This document shows, in pieces, positions 11,291 to 64,000 of a stretch of 64,000 nt of DNA. The notes under the pieces are model-generated. The model was not told where the DNA came from. It saw nothing but the letters and a program-made list of their open reading frames with translations, and did not search any database. Position 1 is the first letter of the stretch. Each line of letters starts with the position of its first letter. The stretch is taken from positions 38,197-102,196 of the forward strand of contig NXFV01000926.1 of the NCBI GenBank assembly GCA_002803225.1. Reading direction: 5' to 3'. The translations under genes and the position numbers were made by a program. This DNA comes from Gamarada debralockiae (taxonomy: Eukaryota; Ascomycota; Leotiomycetes; Helotiales; Hyphodiscaceae).

Positions 11291-14200
11291 CTAACTATCT
11301 GCAATTATAGAATCCCTATGTTCCTTCGCCCTAAACACCGTTTCAATCTGATACCGATTAGTTCGCTCCCTGGAGTAATTCATCGGCGTCATCTTATATA
11401 CGTCGACCGCATTCGCATCCGCCCCTTCATCCAACAGCATGCCAATAACATCGGTTGTCGACCGCCAAGCAGCAATATGCAGCGCTGTCTGTTTCCACTT
11501 GTCCTCAACTCTTATATCGGCGCCCGCCTTCAGCAGCAAACGAACTACTTTCACTTCGGAGCCTTCAGCCGCAACATGCAGCGCCGTATTTCCTCCATAA
11601 TTCTGAAGATTCACATCTGCTCCTGCATCAATGAGCACTCGCACCGTTTTCACCGCCGATGTCTCCGGATTACCCCAAGAAACCGGAGATGCAGCAGCGA
11701 ATAAAGGATACTGGTGCAGAGTCGGAGTTCTCTCATTTGGGTCTTCACCTAGTTCTAGAAGTCGACGAACGCAAGAAAAGAGCTTATGCCGACTACAGTA
11801 ATATAAGGCGCTCTCGCCCTTCTCGTATTCGCGGCTGCTGGGGAAGTGAGAAACACCGAGCATGAGTGGAAGAGAGGAGAACAGAGCGCTGCGGTCCGAG
11901 AGTAGGCGACTCAAAACATTGCTCTGGTCTATCAACTCTTTTTCCGCTGCTTCAATGTGGGTAAAAAGGTAGGTGGCTACATAGGGGAGTAGAATCAAAG
12001 GCTCTTGTGAAGGTCTACTAACTCGGGAGTGTGCGCTCCGTGCAGCGCTGCTAACCTCGCTGGTTTGAAGGTAGTTCACGCACGTCAATGCTATGGAACT
12101 ATGAGCTTTCCCTGTAATGCTGCCTTCGAATTTTGGGTCCAGGAGTTGAAAGCCACTGCCCGTGAGGAAGAAATCACGGACCGATTCGTGAATGAATTGT
12201 AATGAAGGGTCGGCCTCAGTCGAGATCACAGGCTCCACAAGGCCTCGTGATAGAGTCGTAATCATCTGAAGCTGTTTTTCGGGAGCAAGAAATTCGTCTG
12301 AATCCTTCCAGGATTGAATAGAGTGATGCACGTGCTCTTCTGAGAAACCGAGAATACAATGGAGCTCGGATAGCTTTACAAGTTCCTTGGCGAACAAAAT
12401 CCATTGCACAAGACAAATTGCTTTCTGTGAGTCGCGTTTTTCTGTAGCTACTTCTTGAAATATATCGCAGAATAGCCGGTCCAATTCTGGTGGGATCTCC
12501 TCGAGCTTCTTCTCCATCCATTTAAGTGAATTCCCGTAACTTAACCTCTTGAGCATGGAGACCACTAGTACGACCCAAAGGAAAACGCCTTGGGACTTTG
12601 TGAAGATCTTGTCTTGTAATTTTGATACCGTATCGACGTATTCTGCCTCAGTTCGGATATACTCCAGAATATCTTGCTCATTATGATGTTCAATGACAAC
12701 TTCAGGACAAGCCTTGATCGATATATTCGGATAATGCCGACTGGAGAGACAAATGCTGAGATGAGCTCCCTCAGACCATGCTTTGGTTGTTAAGTCTCTG
12801 AAAAAGTCCACCAGATAGCGCACTTCTCTCTCATCACATTCATCCAGCGCATCGATGAATATGAATACGGGATCCGGAGTCGTACATGCATAGTACAAGA
12901 ACTTCTGCAGATCAGCTTGATGCCATTGAACCTGACGCTGGGTTTCTCTCTTCTGCAAGTAGTTCGGTAAAATATAGGATAAAGCTTCTTGATTCTGTTG
13001 CAGGATTTGGTGTAAAATCGAGCGAAATAATCCCAGAGAAGTTTTTTCAAGCTGCTCGGCACTTCTGGCGTTGAAAAAAAAACCAGCAGTAGTAGTTTGA
13101 GTTCCAGCATAAGTTTCTTCAGCTCTTTGCAGAGCTTCTTTCAGCAGTGTTGATTTGCCGGCCCCTGGCTTTCCTTTAATCCATAAGAGACCGTGATGTT
13201 CTGAAACCTTGTACCGATTGATCCAGTTGTAGTATTCAGGAGTGGAAAAAAACCAGTTGCATGTATTGCTTAGAGCGTCCCGAATGTTCTTCTGGCGCAG
13301 ATACATTGCTGGAAAATGTAACGAGCGGAGAAGATCTGTGTTTAATTAGCAAAGCCCGACAAATGGGAATTTTGGTCTCCCTTAGGTGTAACTTAACTTT
13401 GCACTCTTCAGTGAGCACAGCAGCTTTTGAGGATTGAGAGTCGAGCACTGAGGTAGTTAATACACAGCTTTGAGCGGATAATATCGGCGTGCACTAACAA
13501 TTATTTTTAATGCTTCGCAACATGAGGGCTATCTCTGCGGATATCTTTTTGTATCCCAAATCCGTAGCATTTGAAAACCTACATATATCCATGTGGTTCG
13601 CGGATATTGTCTCGGCGTGTTCACGAGGATCGTCTAAAGACGAGGAATAATCAGGGACAACCTAAAAGTCGCAAATAAGCTGTGAAAAGTCCAAGTTTGG
13701 ACGTATACTGGTATTTCCAAATATTAGATTACCATATAAGACGCTACGACCCACCTTTCTATTCAATGGACCGGCGTTGACCCCCGATATTCCGAACGCC
13801 TCCTGAAAGGTCTTAACCTGAAAGCCAAACGTTCTCCACTGTGTGATAAAGGACTCGCGACTTAACTCTAGCTCTGGGCTATCGAGGCCCAGAGCTCGGA
13901 GCAGCACCGCGTTTGAATCCATCATAAGTATTGTACTAGCAGCACTCCGCGCTATTTCTCCTAGATTAGCAAGATCTGGGCTCCCGCGGTGAGGCGTCCC
14001 AAGAAAAATGACCCCAATGGTCGACTTGATGATGTCTTGAACTTCAGGCTCAGTTGATACTTCTGAGCGACGCAGTACCTAATCGCTTGATTAGCATATA
14101 TGTTAGGGCGACAATGAGGCAAGTAAAACTTGCTTCTTTGACAATGAGCCCCCCAAGTGAATGAGCTACAAATATAATAGGTCGCCTCAGCGCTCTATCC

Positions 14201-29662: not shown

Positions 29663-30457
29663 TCAGTACATAGCCCAACCCCCACTCACACTCAAACTTT
29701 GGCCCGTTACCCACCTGCTTTCTGGGCCCGCTAGCCATGCTACAACATCAGCAACCTCCTCCTTCATACCCAGTCTGTTCTCCACTGGCGTGCCTTTCTT
29801 CTGCATTTCAACAATATCCTTCGGTATGTTATCCAACATCTCGCTCTGGACCGGTCCAGGGTTCACGCAGTTGACAGTTGTACCGTTATGTCCCAGTTCG
29901 GCGGCCCAGCAGCGTGTAAGTCCCTCGAGAGCGGCTTTGGATGAGCAGTAGAGAGACATGTTTGGGAATCCAGCTCGGGCTCCGACTGAGCCGATGTTGA
30001 TGATGCGGCTAGATGGAGGCATGTAAGGAAGGAGGGCTTGTGTCAACAGCAACGGCGCCCTGACATTCAAATTGTATACAGCCTCGAAATCTTCGGGCAT
30101 TATGTCCTCTAGCTTTTTCACCACTTCCATGCCAGCATTGTTCACCAAAATATTGACGCTCATCGATGCCTTTCCTTCGCGCCAGTTTGTCAGATACTCG
30201 ACTATTCTGCTCGCGGCTCCGCTTTGTCTTAGATCTTCGCGTATGGAGAAGGCCTTGGGCCTGTGAGGGAGCGATTTTATCTTCTTTTCGAGCTCGATGA
30301 TGAGGGATTGGCTGCTGAGGGAGCCGTAGACTAGGGCCACGTCGGCACCACGACATGCGAGCTCGTAGGCTAAGGACGCACCGATGCCGCGGGAGGCGCC
30401 GGTAATGAGAGCTGTTTTGCCTTTGAGAGGCCGATGCTTGTGTGCTTCTGAGGCCAT
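29663..30457 (-). CDS. Short-chain dehydrogenase/reductase
   Basis: One intronless frame of 264 residues has all classical SDR landmarks: the cofactor loop Thr-Gly-Ala-Ser-Arg-Gly-Ile-Gly at 19-26, Asn-Asn-Ala-Gly at 106-109, Ser157, the catalytic Tyr170-x3-Lys174 in Ser-Leu-Tyr-Cys-Ser-Ser-Lys, and Pro-Gly at 200-201. It ends Gly-Gly-Trp-Ala-Met-Tyr, like fungal 3-oxoacyl-ACP reductase-like SDRs. It uses NAD(H) or NADP(H) in the cytosol, substrate unknown. The start at 30457 is the only ATG that includes the first strand. It is divergent from the TSC1 gene and no metabolic cluster surrounds it. Confidence 0.9.
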   Translation of the reverse strand: MASEAHKHRPLKGKTALITGASRGIGASLAYELACRGADVALVYGSLSSQSLIIELEKKIKSLPHRPKAFSIREDLRQSGAASRIVEYLTNWREGKASMSVNILVNNAGMEVVKKLEDIMPEDFEAVYNLNVRAPLLLTQALLPYMPPSSRIINIGSVGARAGFPNMSLYCSSKAALEGLTRCWAAELGHNGTTVNCVNPGPVQSEMLDNIPKDIVEMQKKGTPVENRLGMKEEVADVVAWLAGPESRWVTGQSLSVSGGWAMY

Positions 30458-31017
30458 TTTGAGATGAGAGAAATAGAGCGAGGGTGAAACAGAGTGATCC
30501 GGAGTAGGGAAGACAAGAACAATAATTGCGAGTTAACCGTACGAAGAGTGACTTGAAAAAGATGGTACTTAGCTATATTTATATCCTCACTCCAATCGCT
30601 AACGCCGAATCGCCGAATAGAGTAATTTGGTAGCCATTGGACGTCTGCGTAGACTGATGCTTGGGTTGACGTCGTTGTGGTTGAAGATCGTTCGGCGATA
30701 AGATTAGAATATGGCAGACTTTATTTTCGCTTCACCCGGCCGACGAAAGCTCTTGGGAGGGAGGACAATCGCTTTTGCTTTTTCTCTCCTCAAACCTCAC
30801 TCTCTTTCAAACATCATTGATCACAGCCCTCACTCTAAAATCGAAGGGAGGCCATCCAAGAGATATAGGTCCCGATGCGCGCTCTCTCCACTGCATCAAC
30901 AACGTCTTATCATACGCCGCATCCCTGACCCCGCGGTACCAGGAAGACCCCAGCCTACGACGAAGTAGAAAGCATCTTGGAGGACTGCACGTTCAGTCCC
31001 CGCAACTCTTATGAACC
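30458..31017. promoter_or_regulatory. Divergent spacer between SDR and TSC1 genes
   Basis: A TATATTTATA word at about 30571-30580, near the SDR side, is a plausible TATA element. Short open frames on the plus strand at 30711-31014 have no coding signature and probably belong to the TSC1 leader. Confidence 0.4.
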
Positions 31018-38190: not shown

Positions 38191-38609
38191 AACCTAACAG
38201 AAAACCCATCGTGAACGGGAATACCTGATAGAGGAGGCTATTAACAGCATCCTGAATGATTTGGATGACACCTTGCTGACCAACCCAAGCAGAAGGAACT
38301 TTGGTATGCCGATTTCAGATTACACTGTTTTCAAGTTAGCCAAATCGTCATTTGTTTATAATATAAACACCTACTTATCACGATATCGACGAAATACTAT
38401 GATAGTTCTACGTTGAATTCGATAACTGGGGAGTGTTTTAAACCAGGGACTTAGGTAGGGGTTAAAAACCGAGGGGCTGGGGGTCAGGTTTGTGAAGCCC
38501 CCAAGTGCATCCCCCCTAGACGGGCTTTCTGAACTATCCGGATCATTGAACATCGGTACTCAGCGACTAACTTAGGAAAACGCTTGCCTGTATCGACTCC
38601 GCCGAGAGC
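38191..38609. other. Intergenic
   Basis: No gene is recognised. A C6 run and GGGG-rich words occur near 38460-38520. Confidence 0.35.
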
Positions 38610-51201: not shown

Positions 51202-51903
51202 CTACCCCTCTATCTTTCCTATCCCACGAGAATCCATTTCCAGCTTCGCATCATTGAATTCCGTACTCTCCGGAAGTTCCATCCGAATATCTTTGATGAC
51301 AGCACCGCTCATCTCCGCTTCATTCGCTTCCAACTCCAGAACATGCCCACCGCAGTCTCGGTCTGCTGACACGAAATGAAGATGGCCACCTGCAACTGAA
51401 ATGCCTTGAGAGAAAGGCGGTGATCGGAACCCAAACACAGTTCCCTTGATGTTCTTATACGTATTGACCGATTGGCTGTCCCCAAGTTCGGCTAGAGGTT
51501 GCCCTTTGTATTTCTGGCCTCGGACTGCCCTTACCTTGATGCTTGGGAAGATAGCTTCGATTCTCAACGCCAAGTACAAATTACTCGTATTCGGAAAGAG
51601 TTCTTTGGCTGTCTTATATATCGCATCTTTGTCCGGCAGCGACACTTTATGGGATAAAATCGGCTCGAAGCGCGTCACCATGGCGAATGGAAGCTTGTTG
51701 TGTGCTGTTGCTGTCTCGATGCTCCCGTCGGCTCGCAGGTGGTATGAAAATCCATCTATCATTACCATTTCGCCGTCGATACTTTCGAATGTACCCAGAC
51801 CGTGTGTTCCGAGCTGTTGAAGCTTCGAAAGCTCGATGCCGCCGGATGCAACGCCATCCATGAGCGCGCTTATGATGGAGTATTGGTATAGTTGGTTGGC
51901 CAT
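51202..51903 (-). CDS. Alpha-acetolactate decarboxylase
   Basis: A single intronless frame of 233 residues matches bacterial BudA/AlsD-type enzymes over its whole length. The zinc site is visible as Gly-His-Leu-His-Phe at 173-177 (His174, His176) and Gly-Gly-His at 185-187 (His187). Glu45 in Asp-Gly-Glu-Met-Val and a basic Val-Arg-Ala-Val-Arg-Gly segment at 124-129 match the active-site Glu and Arg positions. The enzyme converts alpha-acetolactate to (R)-acetoin with release of CO2. There is no signal peptide or presequence, so it should be cytosolic. It is divergent from the acetolactate synthase at 52389, which makes its substrate. Bacterial-like sequence, absence of introns and gene pairing suggest horizontal transfer. 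Confidence 0.92.
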   Translation of the reverse strand: MANQLYQYSIISALMDGVASGGIELSKLQQLGTHGLGTFESIDGEMVMIDGFSYHLRADGSIETATAHNKLPFAMVTRFEPILSHKVSLPDKDAIYKTAKELFPNTSNLYLALRIEAIFPSIKVRAVRGQKYKGQPLAELGDSQSVNTYKNIKGTVFGFRSPPFSQGISVAGGHLHFVSADRDCGGHVLELEANEAEMSGAVIKDIRMELPESTEFNDAKLEMDSRGIGKIEG

Positions 51904-52388
51904 TTTGAAAGAGCTGGTGAATTGATTCGTGGGAGCTATTGAAGTGTCCGGTAGGCGGTTTGTTGGGACCGAAGAAGGTCGTCAATTCGCCCCTCCTAAA
52001 TGCGGCAAATGCGGCCGTGTCCTACCCCCGCTATCGTAACGCCATTCCGTCTCGAGAATAGGAGCTCTGATGAGTGTTCTGGATGAGTAAGCTAGATGCA
52101 GAACAAAGCTTGTTTGTTCGAGCACTCTCGCTAGCAACTTTCATCTTCAACGTCAAATGACAATTTTGCTGGAGTGGGCGAAAAGACTGAGTTCATTCCT
52201 CATTTCACACACTTTGTACGTCAGGCTATCTACCTCCGAGTTCACTTCATTGACGAATATCTAGGCCTTTTCAGAACCACTGAAAGAGGCGAGAAGTCAA
52301 GCATCAAGTTTTGCGAAATACCTAGTGCGAGAATTTCCATTGAAATTTATTGCTCTGGGCTAACAAACTTCATCTCAGGAAGCTTACG
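51904..52388. promoter_or_regulatory. Shared bidirectional promoter of the acetoin gene pair
   Basis: The 485-bp spacer is the only sequence from which both genes can be transcribed. It contains a perfect 9-bp tandem repeat, AAATGCGGC twice at 51998-52015, in a GC-rich patch, and a CCCCGC match to the CreA carbon-repressor consensus at 52026-52031. The right part is AT-richer leader sequence. The site assignments are pattern matches only. Confidence 0.5.
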
Positions 52389-54077
52389 ATGACTTCAACA
52401 AAACAAACGAGTCATATCATTGTTGAGAGTCTTTACAATGCCGGTGTTCGGCTTGTGTTCGGGATCCCGGGAGCTAAAGTCGACTCAATTTTCAACACAT
52501 TGTTAGATCATCCTGACATCCATCTCGTTGTATGTCGCCATGAGCAGAATGCCGCTTTTATGGCCGCGGTGGTCGGCCGATTGACAGGTCGCCCGGGAGT
52601 TTGTATCGCCACATCAGGCCCGGGAGCCGCCAACCTGACGACTGGCCTTGCAACAGCCACTACAGAGGGAGATCCAGTCTTAGCAATTGTTGGAATTGTC
52701 CCTCGGACGCAGTCTCACAGACATACTCATCAATCCCTCAGTATCCCAAACCTGCTCAGTGCCGTCTGCAAGTCCGTCTTGAACATCGACGTTGAAGACC
52801 AAGTTTCAGAAGTTGTCCTGAGATCAATCCGTATCGCGAGCCAGTTTCCACAAGGAGCCACCTGTTTCGCTATCCCTATGGATGTCGCCCAAGGCGTTAC
52901 GAAAATCCCGGCATTCGATACGAAAGCTTTCAGCGCACCCAAATACGGAACTGCACCTGTCACAAATCTGGAAGCAGCAAGTCAGCTGATCGAGAGAGCA
53001 AAGATCCCAGTTCTCTTCCTTGGAATGCGAGCTGGAAGCCCGGAAGTTGTGAAAGCCGTTCGAGGATTCCTGAAACGTTGCCCAGTTCCCGTGGTCGAGA
53101 CCTTCCAGGCAGCGGGTGCCATCTCAAAAGACCTTGTACACCTGTTCTCTGGTCGAGTGGGCTTATTCCGCAACCAGCCAGGTGACAAGTTGCTCGCCAA
53201 GGCCGACGTGATTATTTGCGTTGGTTACGATGCCTACGAATACGATGCGAATCTCTGGAACAACCACACTTCAGAGGCAAAACTGATCCATGTCGATTAT
53301 CACGAAGCGGATTACGGTATCAACTACTCGCCAGAGGTAGAATTATTGGGCTCAATTGAGTCGAATCTTGATCGACTTGTCCCTGCTGCGAGCAACGATC
53401 TTCCACGACCGGAAATATCCGCCGTTTGCGAGACCCTGCAAGGCGAACTGAATGGGTGGAAGGCGACTGCGAAATTCCAGTCTCAGCCAGATGGCCCCGT
53501 TCACCCTCTCCATTTCATCGCACTGCTGCAAGAATCTTTGTCAGAGGATACTCTCGTGACTGTCGATGTCGGAACCGTTTATATCTGGATGATGCGTTAT
53601 TTCCACGCATACCAACCACGCCGCCTTCTCAGTTCCAATGGACAACAGACGCTGGGAGTTGGACTTCCTTGGGCCATAGGGGCTAGTTTGATTCAAGATC
53701 CTCCATGCTCACAGAAAGTGGTCAGTCTCAGCGGAGATGGAGGATTCATGTTCTCGTCCCAAGAAATGAGCACTGCCGTGCTACAAAAGTGCAACATCAC
53801 GCACTTCATCTGGAATGATGGCCATTACAACATGGTTGAGTTCCAAGAAGAGATGAAATACGGTCGAAGCAGCGGAATTGCACTTGGGGGAGTTGACTTT
53901 GCCAAGTTTGCTGAAGCTTTTGGTGCGAAGGGATTCCGAGTGGACAAGGCTGAGGATCTGGAGATGATAATGTCCAAGGCGCTCGCGTACACGGGTGTTT
54001 CGATTGTGGATATTAAGATTGATTATTCGCACAACCTGGAGCTGGCACAGCATGTTATTCCTGAAAATTATAGATAA
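52389..54077 (+). CDS. Catabolic alpha-acetolactate synthase, bacterial AlsS/BudB type
   Basis: An intronless frame of 562 residues starts at the ATG giving Met-Thr-Ser-Thr-Lys-Gln. It has the three domains of thiamine-diphosphate enzymes. The N-terminal Pyr domain carries Arg-His-Glu-Gln-Asn-Ala with cofactor-activating Glu52 and Gly-Pro-Gly at 77-79. The middle domain carries Gly-Tyr-Asp-Ala-Tyr-Glu-Tyr-Asp-Ala near 279-287, as in FAD-independent catabolic enzymes, where the anabolic Ilv2 type has its FAD contacts. The C-terminal PP domain carries Gly-Asp-Gly-Gly at 449-452 and Asn-Asp-Gly at 476-478. It condenses two pyruvates to alpha-acetolactate and CO2. No mitochondrial presequence is present, unlike Ilv2, so it should work in the cytosol with the adjacent decarboxylase. 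Horizontal origin is likely. Confidence 0.92.
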   Translation: MTSTKQTSHIIVESLYNAGVRLVFGIPGAKVDSIFNTLLDHPDIHLVVCRHEQNAAFMAAVVGRLTGRPGVCIATSGPGAANLTTGLATATTEGDPVLAIVGIVPRTQSHRHTHQSLSIPNLLSAVCKSVLNIDVEDQVSEVVLRSIRIASQFPQGATCFAIPMDVAQGVTKIPAFDTKAFSAPKYGTAPVTNLEAASQLIERAKIPVLFLGMRAGSPEVVKAVRGFLKRCPVPVVETFQAAGAISKDLVHLFSGRVGLFRNQPGDKLLAKADVIICVGYDAYEYDANLWNNHTSEAKLIHVDYHEADYGINYSPEVELLGSIESNLDRLVPAASNDLPRPEISAVCETLQGELNGWKATAKFQSQPDGPVHPLHFIALLQESLSEDTLVTVDVGTVYIWMMRYFHAYQPRRLLSSNGQQTLGVGLPWAIGASLIQDPPCSQKVVSLSGDGGFMFSSQEMSTAVLQKCNITHFIWNDGHYNMVEFQEEMKYGRSSGIALGGVDFAKFAEAFGAKGFRVDKAEDLEMIMSKALAYTGVSIVDIKIDYSHNLELAQHVIPENYR

Positions 54078-55881: not shown

Positions 55882-57406
55882 ATGGCTTCGCGGAAAATTC
55901 GCGATATTCTCCCGGCATCGATCCTCCCAACGTTGCAGAGCTATTCGGATCTTAGTACTCTCAACTCCTACATAAACGGCTCGACGAAACTTTACAATTT
56001 GCTTGCAAATTCCACAAACTTTACCTTCTTGGCGCCGACGAACGATGCGTTTGCGAAATGGATTTCAAGTCAGGGCAACAGTACCCCGAGTGCGGATGTT
56101 ATCGAGGCCACATTATCTTACCATCTCCTCAATGGTGGCTGGCTAACGGTAGATTTCTCAGACCGGCCTCAGTTTGCGGCTACGAATCTCAACAATGTCA
56201 GCTATTCGAATGTTACTGTCAGTCCCGGCGGCCAACGTGTTGAAGTCATTACTGGGTCAAGCGGGGAGCCTGAGATCTTGTCGAACAACAAAACTGTCAC
56301 AACCATTGGGACCAAGGTATGTTTCGGAAATAGCGCTGAGGAGTTCTGTTAATAACCATAAACAGGATGTTGTTTGCCTCGGAGGATTGATCCAAATTGT
56401 CAACTCCATACTCAGTATTCCGACCAGTATTGTGCTTCTAACGGCCCAAGCGAATATGTCCTTCTTCATTGCGATCCTTAATAGAGCAAACGTGGGTCAT
56501 CTGTTTCATGTTTTCTGATTTAAGAATATCTTGGGTTTAGGGAGCAGTTTTGGCCGTTCCTACTGCCATGATCTATGATCTACAGAACTAACAACTGATA
56601 GTTCCTCTCTGTGGACGATGCGGGTCTCATCGACTTTGTTAACTACGCTTCCTTCACGCCAAACATGACATTTTTTGTCCCGAACACAGCAGCCGCCCTC
56701 GCTACCTTCACAAACATCTCATCAACACTCTCTGCAGATAACCTTACGGCACTCTTCGACTACCACATAGTCCCCAATTCCCTTCTCTACAGCCCGTCTT
56801 TAAAGAATGGAACAGTATTGAAGACTACACAGGGAGATAATTTAACCATCACCACCCAAGGCTCAGATATATATGTCAACTCCGCAAAAATACTCGAACC
56901 TGATTATCTGATCGTAAATGGAGTCATCCATACAATTGACAGGTAAAACTCCTCTCATTATCCGCATACCCGCACAGCCAAGCTAACGGAATAAAAACAG
57001 TATCCTCGATCGCTTCAACCAGACCATCCCTCAACAAACTTCAAATACCACAACGACACCTTCATCGTCTTCCACCTCCGCCACCGCGGCACCTTCTCAC
57101 AGCGGTCTCTCAACAGGAGGAATAATTGCCGTCAGTGTCGTCATACCTATCGTCGTCCTCGCAGCTTTGGCTGGGCTCCTATTCTGGTTCTTTAAGAGAA
57201 GGAAGACAACCCGAGCACAACACGAACTCGATACAAGTGCTGCCACGGGAGAACTGGGATCGAATCCTGCCGCGAAAGAGTTAGGAGCCAATGACCCTGC
57301 GGCGAAGGAACTCAACGCAGTGGAATCGAAAAAGGAACTTGACGCTTCGCAGCCCCCGCAGGAAATGTTCGCGCATCATTCGGGGCCGCCTGTGGAATTG
57401 GAATGA
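55882..57406 (+). CDS. Two-FAS1-domain (fasciclin-like) membrane protein
   Basis: Four exons, 55882-56316, 56366-56491, 56602-56942 and 57001-57406, join in frame to about 435 residues. FAS1 domain 1 has Leu-Tyr-Asn-Leu-Leu, Thr-Phe-Leu-Ala-Pro-Thr-Asn-Asp-Ala-Phe and Tyr-His-Leu-Leu. Domain 2 has Thr-Phe-Phe-Val-Pro-Asn, Phe-Asp-Tyr-His-Ile-Val and Asn-Gly-Val-Ile-His-Thr-Ile-Asp. Many N-glycosylation sequons are present. A Ser/Thr-rich linker, one membrane helix (Val-Ile-Pro-Ile-Val-Val-Leu) and a charged tail with Ala-Lys-Glu-Leu repeats complete it. Such proteins mediate adhesion at the cell surface. The chosen ATG gives no signal peptide. A hydrophobic Met-Arg-Leu-Ser start in another frame upstream (about 55757) suggests a one-base frameshift or an unseen exon. 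Confidence 0.75.
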
Positions 57407-63028: not shown

Positions 63029-64000
63029 ATGTCTGAAAGCACGAAAAATGACCCTACGGATAAGGGAACAAAGCGCCCTAATGCTCCCCCGCTTTTGAAC
63101 AAGGGTTCAGTGTTCAAACCTATGACTTTACCTAATTTTGACTTCGAAATTACCCTTCCTAATGACGTCTCTCCAGACGACCCTATCTCTTTATTTGAAA
63201 TGTATTATACACCAGATATTATCGACCAGATCGTGCGCCATACAAATCGATACTTTAGGGCCCCTAAAGAACCCTCAAAAAAGCACTCACGTGCTCACAA
63301 TTAGTATCCAACCCACCCAGCCGAAATCTATACCTACCTTGCGATTCGAATATATATGACTCTCCATGTCGATAATGAGATTATCAACTATTGGAATACA
63401 AGTGAAATGGCTCCATCTCACCCTATTACTAAGCATATGTCGAGAAATCGATTCCAAGAGCTCCATATGAGGTTCCGGGTACATGGACCAGATAATAAAG
63501 GGCCATATTCAAAGGTAAATTAAAAAAAATAACCCTTAATTATATATTTAAAAACTAATGATATATTTAGGTAGAAATACTTAGCTAACACATCCAGAGA
63601 GTCAATCTCCAATTATGGAAGCCAGGGCGTGATATTTCGATCGATGAAGCTATGATAGCATTTGAAGGCAATGTATCTGAAGCTACAACAATACCAAATA
63701 AGCCTACGCCTACTGGTTTCAAGTCTTGGTGTGCTGCTAATCGCGGCTTCCTATTAGTATGGAATTGGCATACTCCTAGTGATGGAAATGGCCTAGTTGG
63801 AGTGAAAACACCACGTGAGCTAGGTGGGACTATTCGTGAAGGGAAAGGCGGGAACAAAACACAAGTAGTTGCTCTCTTATTAGTTGAAAGATTACCAAGG
63901 AAAGGCTATCAATTGTTTGTTGATAATCTCTTTACCTCTATTGTGGAGGGGCGAAATGCGAGTATAAGCGCTTCCCGATTGCGCTGTGTGTCGCACGTGC
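63029..64000 (+). pseudogene. PiggyBac-like transposase, partial, with stops
   Basis: From an ATG at 63029 an N-terminal region of 91 codons ends at a TAG (63302). The same frame continues with Glu-Ile-Tyr-Thr-Tyr-Leu-Ala-Ile-Arg-Ile-Tyr-Met and Met-Ser-Arg-Asn-Arg-Phe-Gln-Glu-Leu-His. A possible intron (GTAAAT near 63513 to TTTAG near 63571) comes next. After a further TAA it reads Ser-Ile-Asp-Glu-Ala-Met-Ile-Ala-Phe-Glu-Gly, the first catalytic Asp block of DDE_Tnp_1_7 transposases, then Asn-Lys-Pro-Thr-Pro, Gly-Phe-Lys-Ser-Trp-Cys and Phe-Val-Asp-Asn-Leu-Phe-Thr-Ser, the second Asp block. The third lies beyond the window. Stops at likely Gln/Trp codons suggest RIP. Confidence 0.75.

Follow-up and report, generated by a model that had tools for sequence, protein, structure and literature searches.

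Organization of the locus

The window analyzed here, a 64,000-nucleotide stretch of the genome of the filamentous fungus Gamarada debralockiae (positions 38197–102196 of its contig in a 54.3-Mb assembly of 1112 contigs), contains two adjacent genes, alsD and alsS, which are predicted to encode an alpha-acetolactate decarboxylase and a catabolic-type acetolactate synthase, and which lie head to head in divergent orientation with 485 bp between their start codons (Table 1). Each gene consists of one ATG-to-stop frame that is colinear with the bacterial enzymes along most of its length, and a scan for consensus-type introns found none in either gene, the background in the window being ∼0.7–0.8 per kb per strand. 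Both frames are at the positions given in the original prediction, which had described the pair as divergent and intronless. The start of alsS was taken at its ATG, while the ORF list opens this frame at a TTG (52350). Upstream of each start, a stop codon occurs before any in-frame ATG, which leaves no room for an uninterrupted presequence, in keeping with the prediction that both proteins lack a mitochondrial one. The divergent layout suggests that the region between the genes is a shared promoter, which could drive both genes and so place them under joint control. A small motif scan of this region gave two SYGGRG-type matches and no CCAAT or TATA-type match.

Table 1. Features of the window, in window coordinates.
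Feature	Position	Strand	Details
NACHT-ankyrin frame	11294..13345	-	684 codons
SDR frame	29666..30532	-	complete, intronless, 289 codons
alsD, alpha-acetolactate decarboxylase (predicted)	51202..51903	-	ATG at 51903, stop ending 51202, 233 aa, single frame
Region between start codons, candidate shared promoter	51904..52388	.	485 bp; from coordinates and small motif scan
alsS, catabolic-type acetolactate synthase (predicted)	52389..54077	+	ATG at 52389, stop ending 54077, 562 aa, single frame
Fasciclin gene, first frame	55882..56352		FAS1 Pfam match
Fasciclin gene, second frame	56611..56946		
Transposase piece	63589..63999	+	DDE_Tnp_1_7 (piggyBac/IS4-type)

By Pfam match, the neighbors to the left of the pair are SUR7, NACHT-ankyrin, MT-A70, hamartin, and 2EXR genes, and those to the right are fasciclin and cytochrome P450 genes. 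The pair had been predicted to stand out as intronless among intron-rich neighbors, and this was borne out in part, since the pair has no introns and the fasciclin gene looks split into two frames. The contrast is not distinctive, however, because the window holds other long uninterrupted frames (hamartin-like, 860 codons; NACHT-ankyrin and SDR, Table 1) and elsewhere in the genome Ilv2 (583 aa) also lies in one frame, and hence the intronlessness of the pair is a weak argument. The NACHT-ankyrin frame combines an N-terminal NPHP3/NACHT-type NTPase with C-terminal ankyrin repeats and resembles fungal NOD-like receptors, and the transposase piece lies at the window edge. Elsewhere in the assembly there is a single 5.8S rRNA match (contig C211, around 763–913); by eye, the nearby end of the SSU rRNA seems to be interrupted by a group I intron-like insert of a few hundred bases, and the second ribosomal spacer looks very short, perhaps because of an assembly join. 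The sequence of the spacer region would fit a leotiomycete.

Identity of the two enzymes

AlsD matches Pfam PF03306 (AAL_decarboxy) with an E-value of 9.8e-74 (score 247.8, cut-off 25) over profile positions 1–218 of 219 and passes the NCBIfam equivalog TIGR01252 (192 bits, cut-off 180.65). AlsS passes two catabolic equivalogs, TIGR02418 (662.1 bits, cut-off 551.1) and NF006378 (703.7, cut-off 510), and fails the biosynthetic Ilv2-type model TIGR00118 (286.7, cut-off 538.35). Among solved structures, the two proteins are closest in sequence to acetolactate decarboxylases and to catabolic acetolactate synthases, one of them a computed ancestor, with E-values far below chance: the best are 5xne for AlsD (9.5e-42), and 9zgl (7.7e-174) and the Bacillus subtilis enzyme 4rjj (4.1e-148) for AlsS. 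Structure models built from alignments of 22 (AlsS) and 24 (AlsD) sequences agree with these assignments. The AlsS model has a mean pLDDT of 87.3, with low confidence in the last seven residues, and a TM score of ∼0.9 to the AlsS structures 9zgl, 4rji, and 1ozf, while the AlsD model has a mean pLDDT of 86.0, with low confidence in the last nine residues, and a TM score of 0.92 to the solved decarboxylase 4bt2.

The active-site residues cited for both proteins are in place. In AlsD, Glu45, His174, His176, and His187, which we take to be the metal-binding and catalytic residues, occupy columns that show no variation among the 53 bacterial AlsD sequences. The C-terminal glutamate, for which we assume a metal-binding role in acetolactate decarboxylases, is matched by a glutamate in each of the 11 bacterial sequences listed. 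In AlsS, Glu52, presumably the catalytic glutamate, and the GDG motif (G449, D450, G451), presumably that for thiamine diphosphate, occupy columns that all 45 bacterial sequences conserve; of the NDG motif (476–478), D477 alone is among the near-invariant columns (45/45). AlsD departs from two of the 16 near-invariant bacterial columns (F110Y and G117A) and AlsS from 14 of 125, all these counts leaving out the fungus's own paralogues (L003–L006). By family score, catalytic columns, and predicted fold, AlsD is thus identified as an intact acetolactate decarboxylase, with the corresponding activity predicted, and AlsS as an intact catabolic-type acetolactate synthase, which, to judge from its family, would work without FAD. 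The expectation that the pair would look functional is upheld by the retained catalytic columns and by models that match solved enzymes.

Related enzymes in the fungal genome

A canonical Ilv2 is encoded elsewhere in the genome (752.7 bits with TIGR00118, above the cut-off that AlsS fails; 1058.6 bits to 7egv). Like AlsS, fungal Ilv2, or acetohydroxyacid synthase, uses thiamine diphosphate to convert pyruvate to acetolactate, but the Ilv2 of this fungus belongs to a different family (TIGR00118) and is 23–26% identical to AlsS. In yeast, Ilv2 is an FAD-containing, mitochondrial enzyme with a regulatory subunit. The next best match to AlsS in the genome is 26% identical; others are an oxalyl-CoA-decarboxylase-like protein, which scores below the cut-offs of the oxalyl-CoA-decarboxylase models, and a further thiamine-diphosphate enzyme in two pieces on contig C1030. 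The alsD gene is itself the single match to AlsD in the assembly. The acetoin reductase model TIGR02415 has 19 matches in the genome and none above its cut-off, as judged from the 16 of 279 first-look candidates that were scored, with exons matching separately. The third best match is the SDR frame in the window (143.2 bits, cut-off 304.35), which lies ∼21 kb from the pair and is not counted in the acetoin module.

Bacterial relatives

Bacterial relatives were sought in 398 genomes around a Methylococcales center (seven with AlsS at E 1e-100), 398 around Acetobacterium (four at E 1e-100), 299 from one class of the phylum of Acetobacterium (34 at E 1e-120), and 72,556 plasmid records, of which 136 matched AlsS (E 1e-100) and 170 matched AlsD (E 1e-5), every one below 60% identity. 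Actinomycetota were not sampled on purpose, and loci are labeled Pseudomonadota or Bacillota by the phylum of the center genome of each survey. The highest identity to AlsS, 49–50%, was found in Bacillota in the survey around Acetobacterium and the highest to AlsD, 39–40%, in Paraburkholderia. In all 45 bacterial AlsS loci (39 of 39 genome loci, which cover 39 of the 43 distinct genome AlsS matches, and six plasmid loci), alsD adjoins alsS and is read in the same direction, and the stretches matched by tblastn, from which the gaps were measured rather than from annotated gene ends, are no more than 193 bp apart. The alsSD operons of Bacillota and the budA-budB operons of Pseudomonadota contain the same two enzyme families, side by side, as the fungal pair. 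In contrast to these co-directional genes, those of the fungus are adjacent but do not share a strand, with 485 bp between start codons, and their products are at most ∼50% (AlsS) and ∼40% (AlsD) identical to the bacterial ones.

A scan of genome contigs with AlsD gave eight bacterial relatives (29–37% identity), and none of these eight genomes had a match to AlsS at E 1e-60. The AlsD sequences from these genomes group together in the tree (SH-aLRT 88), a hint that these bacteria use AlsD with another synthase. Viral contigs gave seven and nine pattern matches, with no relative among them.

Quick trees were computed from bacterial sequences and the fungus's own paralogues only, with 48 rows for AlsS (two fragments from the fungus, L005 and L006, being left out) and 54 for AlsD. 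Both window proteins are very long, isolated branches (2.26 for AlsS and 2.55 for AlsD) that belong to no supported set, and the nearest rows by tree path are from Bacillota in both cases. The root of the AlsS tree was not used because the outgroup branches are saturated (length 10). Hence, within this sampling, both families are bacterial, and the fungal proteins have diverged far from the bacterial ones.

A comparable pair in Penicillium

Acetoin genes of this kind are already known in fungi, since an adjacent pair has been studied in Penicillium digitatum. According to the available portion of that work, PDIG_14840 (ALS) and PDIG_14850 (ALD) are neighbors within a five-gene cluster responsive to the antifungal protein AfpB, they are expressed and respond jointly to AfpB, and the authors read them as an acetoin pathway (PMC10269557). 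In the same portion, single and double deletions of ALS and ALD gave normal growth and infection with a two-fold higher AfpB MIC, and the available account of the deletions contains no acetoin measurement (PMC10269557). The words "divergent," "orientation," "bidirectional," and "bacteria" do not occur in the main text, where layout and origin are not discussed (PMC10269557). An alpha-acetolactate decarboxylase of P. digitatum (K9G6C0) appears in a proteomics table in the accessible part of a second report (PMC8775614).

Going by the published description, the G. debralockiae pair is like that of P. digitatum in that the genes for the synthase and the decarboxylase are neighbors, and the two pairs may be kin. 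No further fungal acetolactate decarboxylase is named in the titles and opening lines of abstracts among the matches listed, most of the subscription literature lying outside their scope, and two other reports, as far as their accessible text goes, concern bacterial enzymes or a mixed community (PMC13188119; PMC8417691). Within the literature examined, two features of the pair may be new, namely its divergent layout and the explicit assignment of a catabolic AlsS in a fungus.

Origin of the pair

The original prediction held that the two genes were acquired jointly from bacteria and then rearranged. Joint acquisition is plausible, and the co-directional order in all 45 bacterial loci would agree with rearrangement of an operon that had both genes on one strand, but the trees leave both window proteins as isolated branches in no supported set. 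In a fuller scenario, filamentous fungi would have received a bacterial alsS-alsD operon once, in an ancient transfer, after which it would have been rewired into divergent orientation around one shared promoter, come to provide a dedicated cytosolic acetoin route beside mitochondrial Ilv2, and been kept intact in scattered lineages including G. debralockiae and Penicillium. As a whole we regard this scenario as tentative, possible rather than probable. In Pezizomycotina, interkingdom transfer has been described as probably isolated rather than recurrent, in the accessible part of a 2025 study (PMC11898892) whose main text contains neither "acetolactate" nor "acetoin."

If the two genes instead had separate origins and were brought together later in fungi, the different sources of the best identities (Bacillota for AlsS, Paraburkholderia for AlsD) would be accounted for, although neither placement is supported. 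At such divergence, however, best-hit identity says little, the nearest rows by tree path are from the same phylum for both proteins, and the two genes are partners in bacteria, which together make separate origins unlikely. A recent joint transfer of the operon to this fungal lineage only, after which one gene was inverted, would agree with the bacterial nature of both families in the sampled data and with the presence of alsD next door in every bacterial AlsS locus. It would be hard to reconcile with the lack of any bacterial relative found above ∼50% (AlsS) or ∼40% (AlsD) identity, with the long isolated branches, with an adjacent ALS/ALD pair in Penicillium, and with a host-like codon usage (third-position GC is 0.547 and 0.510 in the pair, 0.534 in Ilv2, and 0.531 in the hamartin frame), and we consider it very improbable. 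Bacterial contamination or an assembly chimera, the former a danger named beforehand in the original prediction, would explain two bacterial-type, intronless genes but has next to no chance of being correct, as it is disfavored by the host-like codon usage, by eukaryote-type genes on either side of the pair on the same contig, by the low identity of AlsS and AlsD to bacterial proteins with no close bacterial relative found, and by a divergent layout unlike that of the 45 bacterial loci.

Function and significance

Acetolactate synthases of the AlsS type convert two pyruvates to acetolactate, which AlsD decarboxylates to acetoin. In the fungus, AlsS with thiamine diphosphate would form alpha-acetolactate from two pyruvates in the cytosol, the metal-dependent AlsD would convert this to acetoin, and the acetoin would then leave the cell or be reduced further. 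With no upstream in-frame ATG a presequence is unlikely, and a cytosolic location is the best reading of the two genes, so that conversion of cytosolic pyruvate to acetoin is the likeliest function of the pair. This route would be separate from that of mitochondrial Ilv2, which serves branched-chain amino acids, and a cytosolic route beside Ilv2, as originally proposed, is probable given the enzyme identities, the active sites, the absence of a presequence, and the separate Ilv2 gene.

A different use is conceivable in which AlsD mainly clears acetolactate escaping from the Ilv2 pathway, AlsS is otherwise used, and acetoin is a by-product. The P. digitatum deletions, which have no growth or infection phenotype in the portion of the account available (PMC10269557), would fit such a role, but a dedicated catabolic-type AlsS adjoins AlsD and would itself supply acetolactate, and we judge leak-clearing to be quite unlikely. 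The same deletion phenotypes, together with the departures of both proteins from near-invariant columns, also count against a functional module. On balance, we think it highly probable that the pair works as a two-enzyme acetoin module in this filamentous fungus, and for it we infer the activity, the location, the promoter, an entry into fungi long ago by descent from bacterial alsS/alsD (budB/budA) genes, and a kinship that would make it a pair of the same kind as P. digitatum ALS/ALD.

Acetoin is a volatile, and the pair would add a second concrete case, in another fungal genome, of a complete route from pyruvate to acetoin beside the usual mitochondrial enzyme, here with the catabolic type of the synthase established. 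If trees of the fungal proteins give one shared origin, the pair would illustrate cleanly how a bacterial operon stayed together in fungi while being reorganized around one promoter. In addition, the release of acetoin by fungi becomes testable by simple gene deletion.
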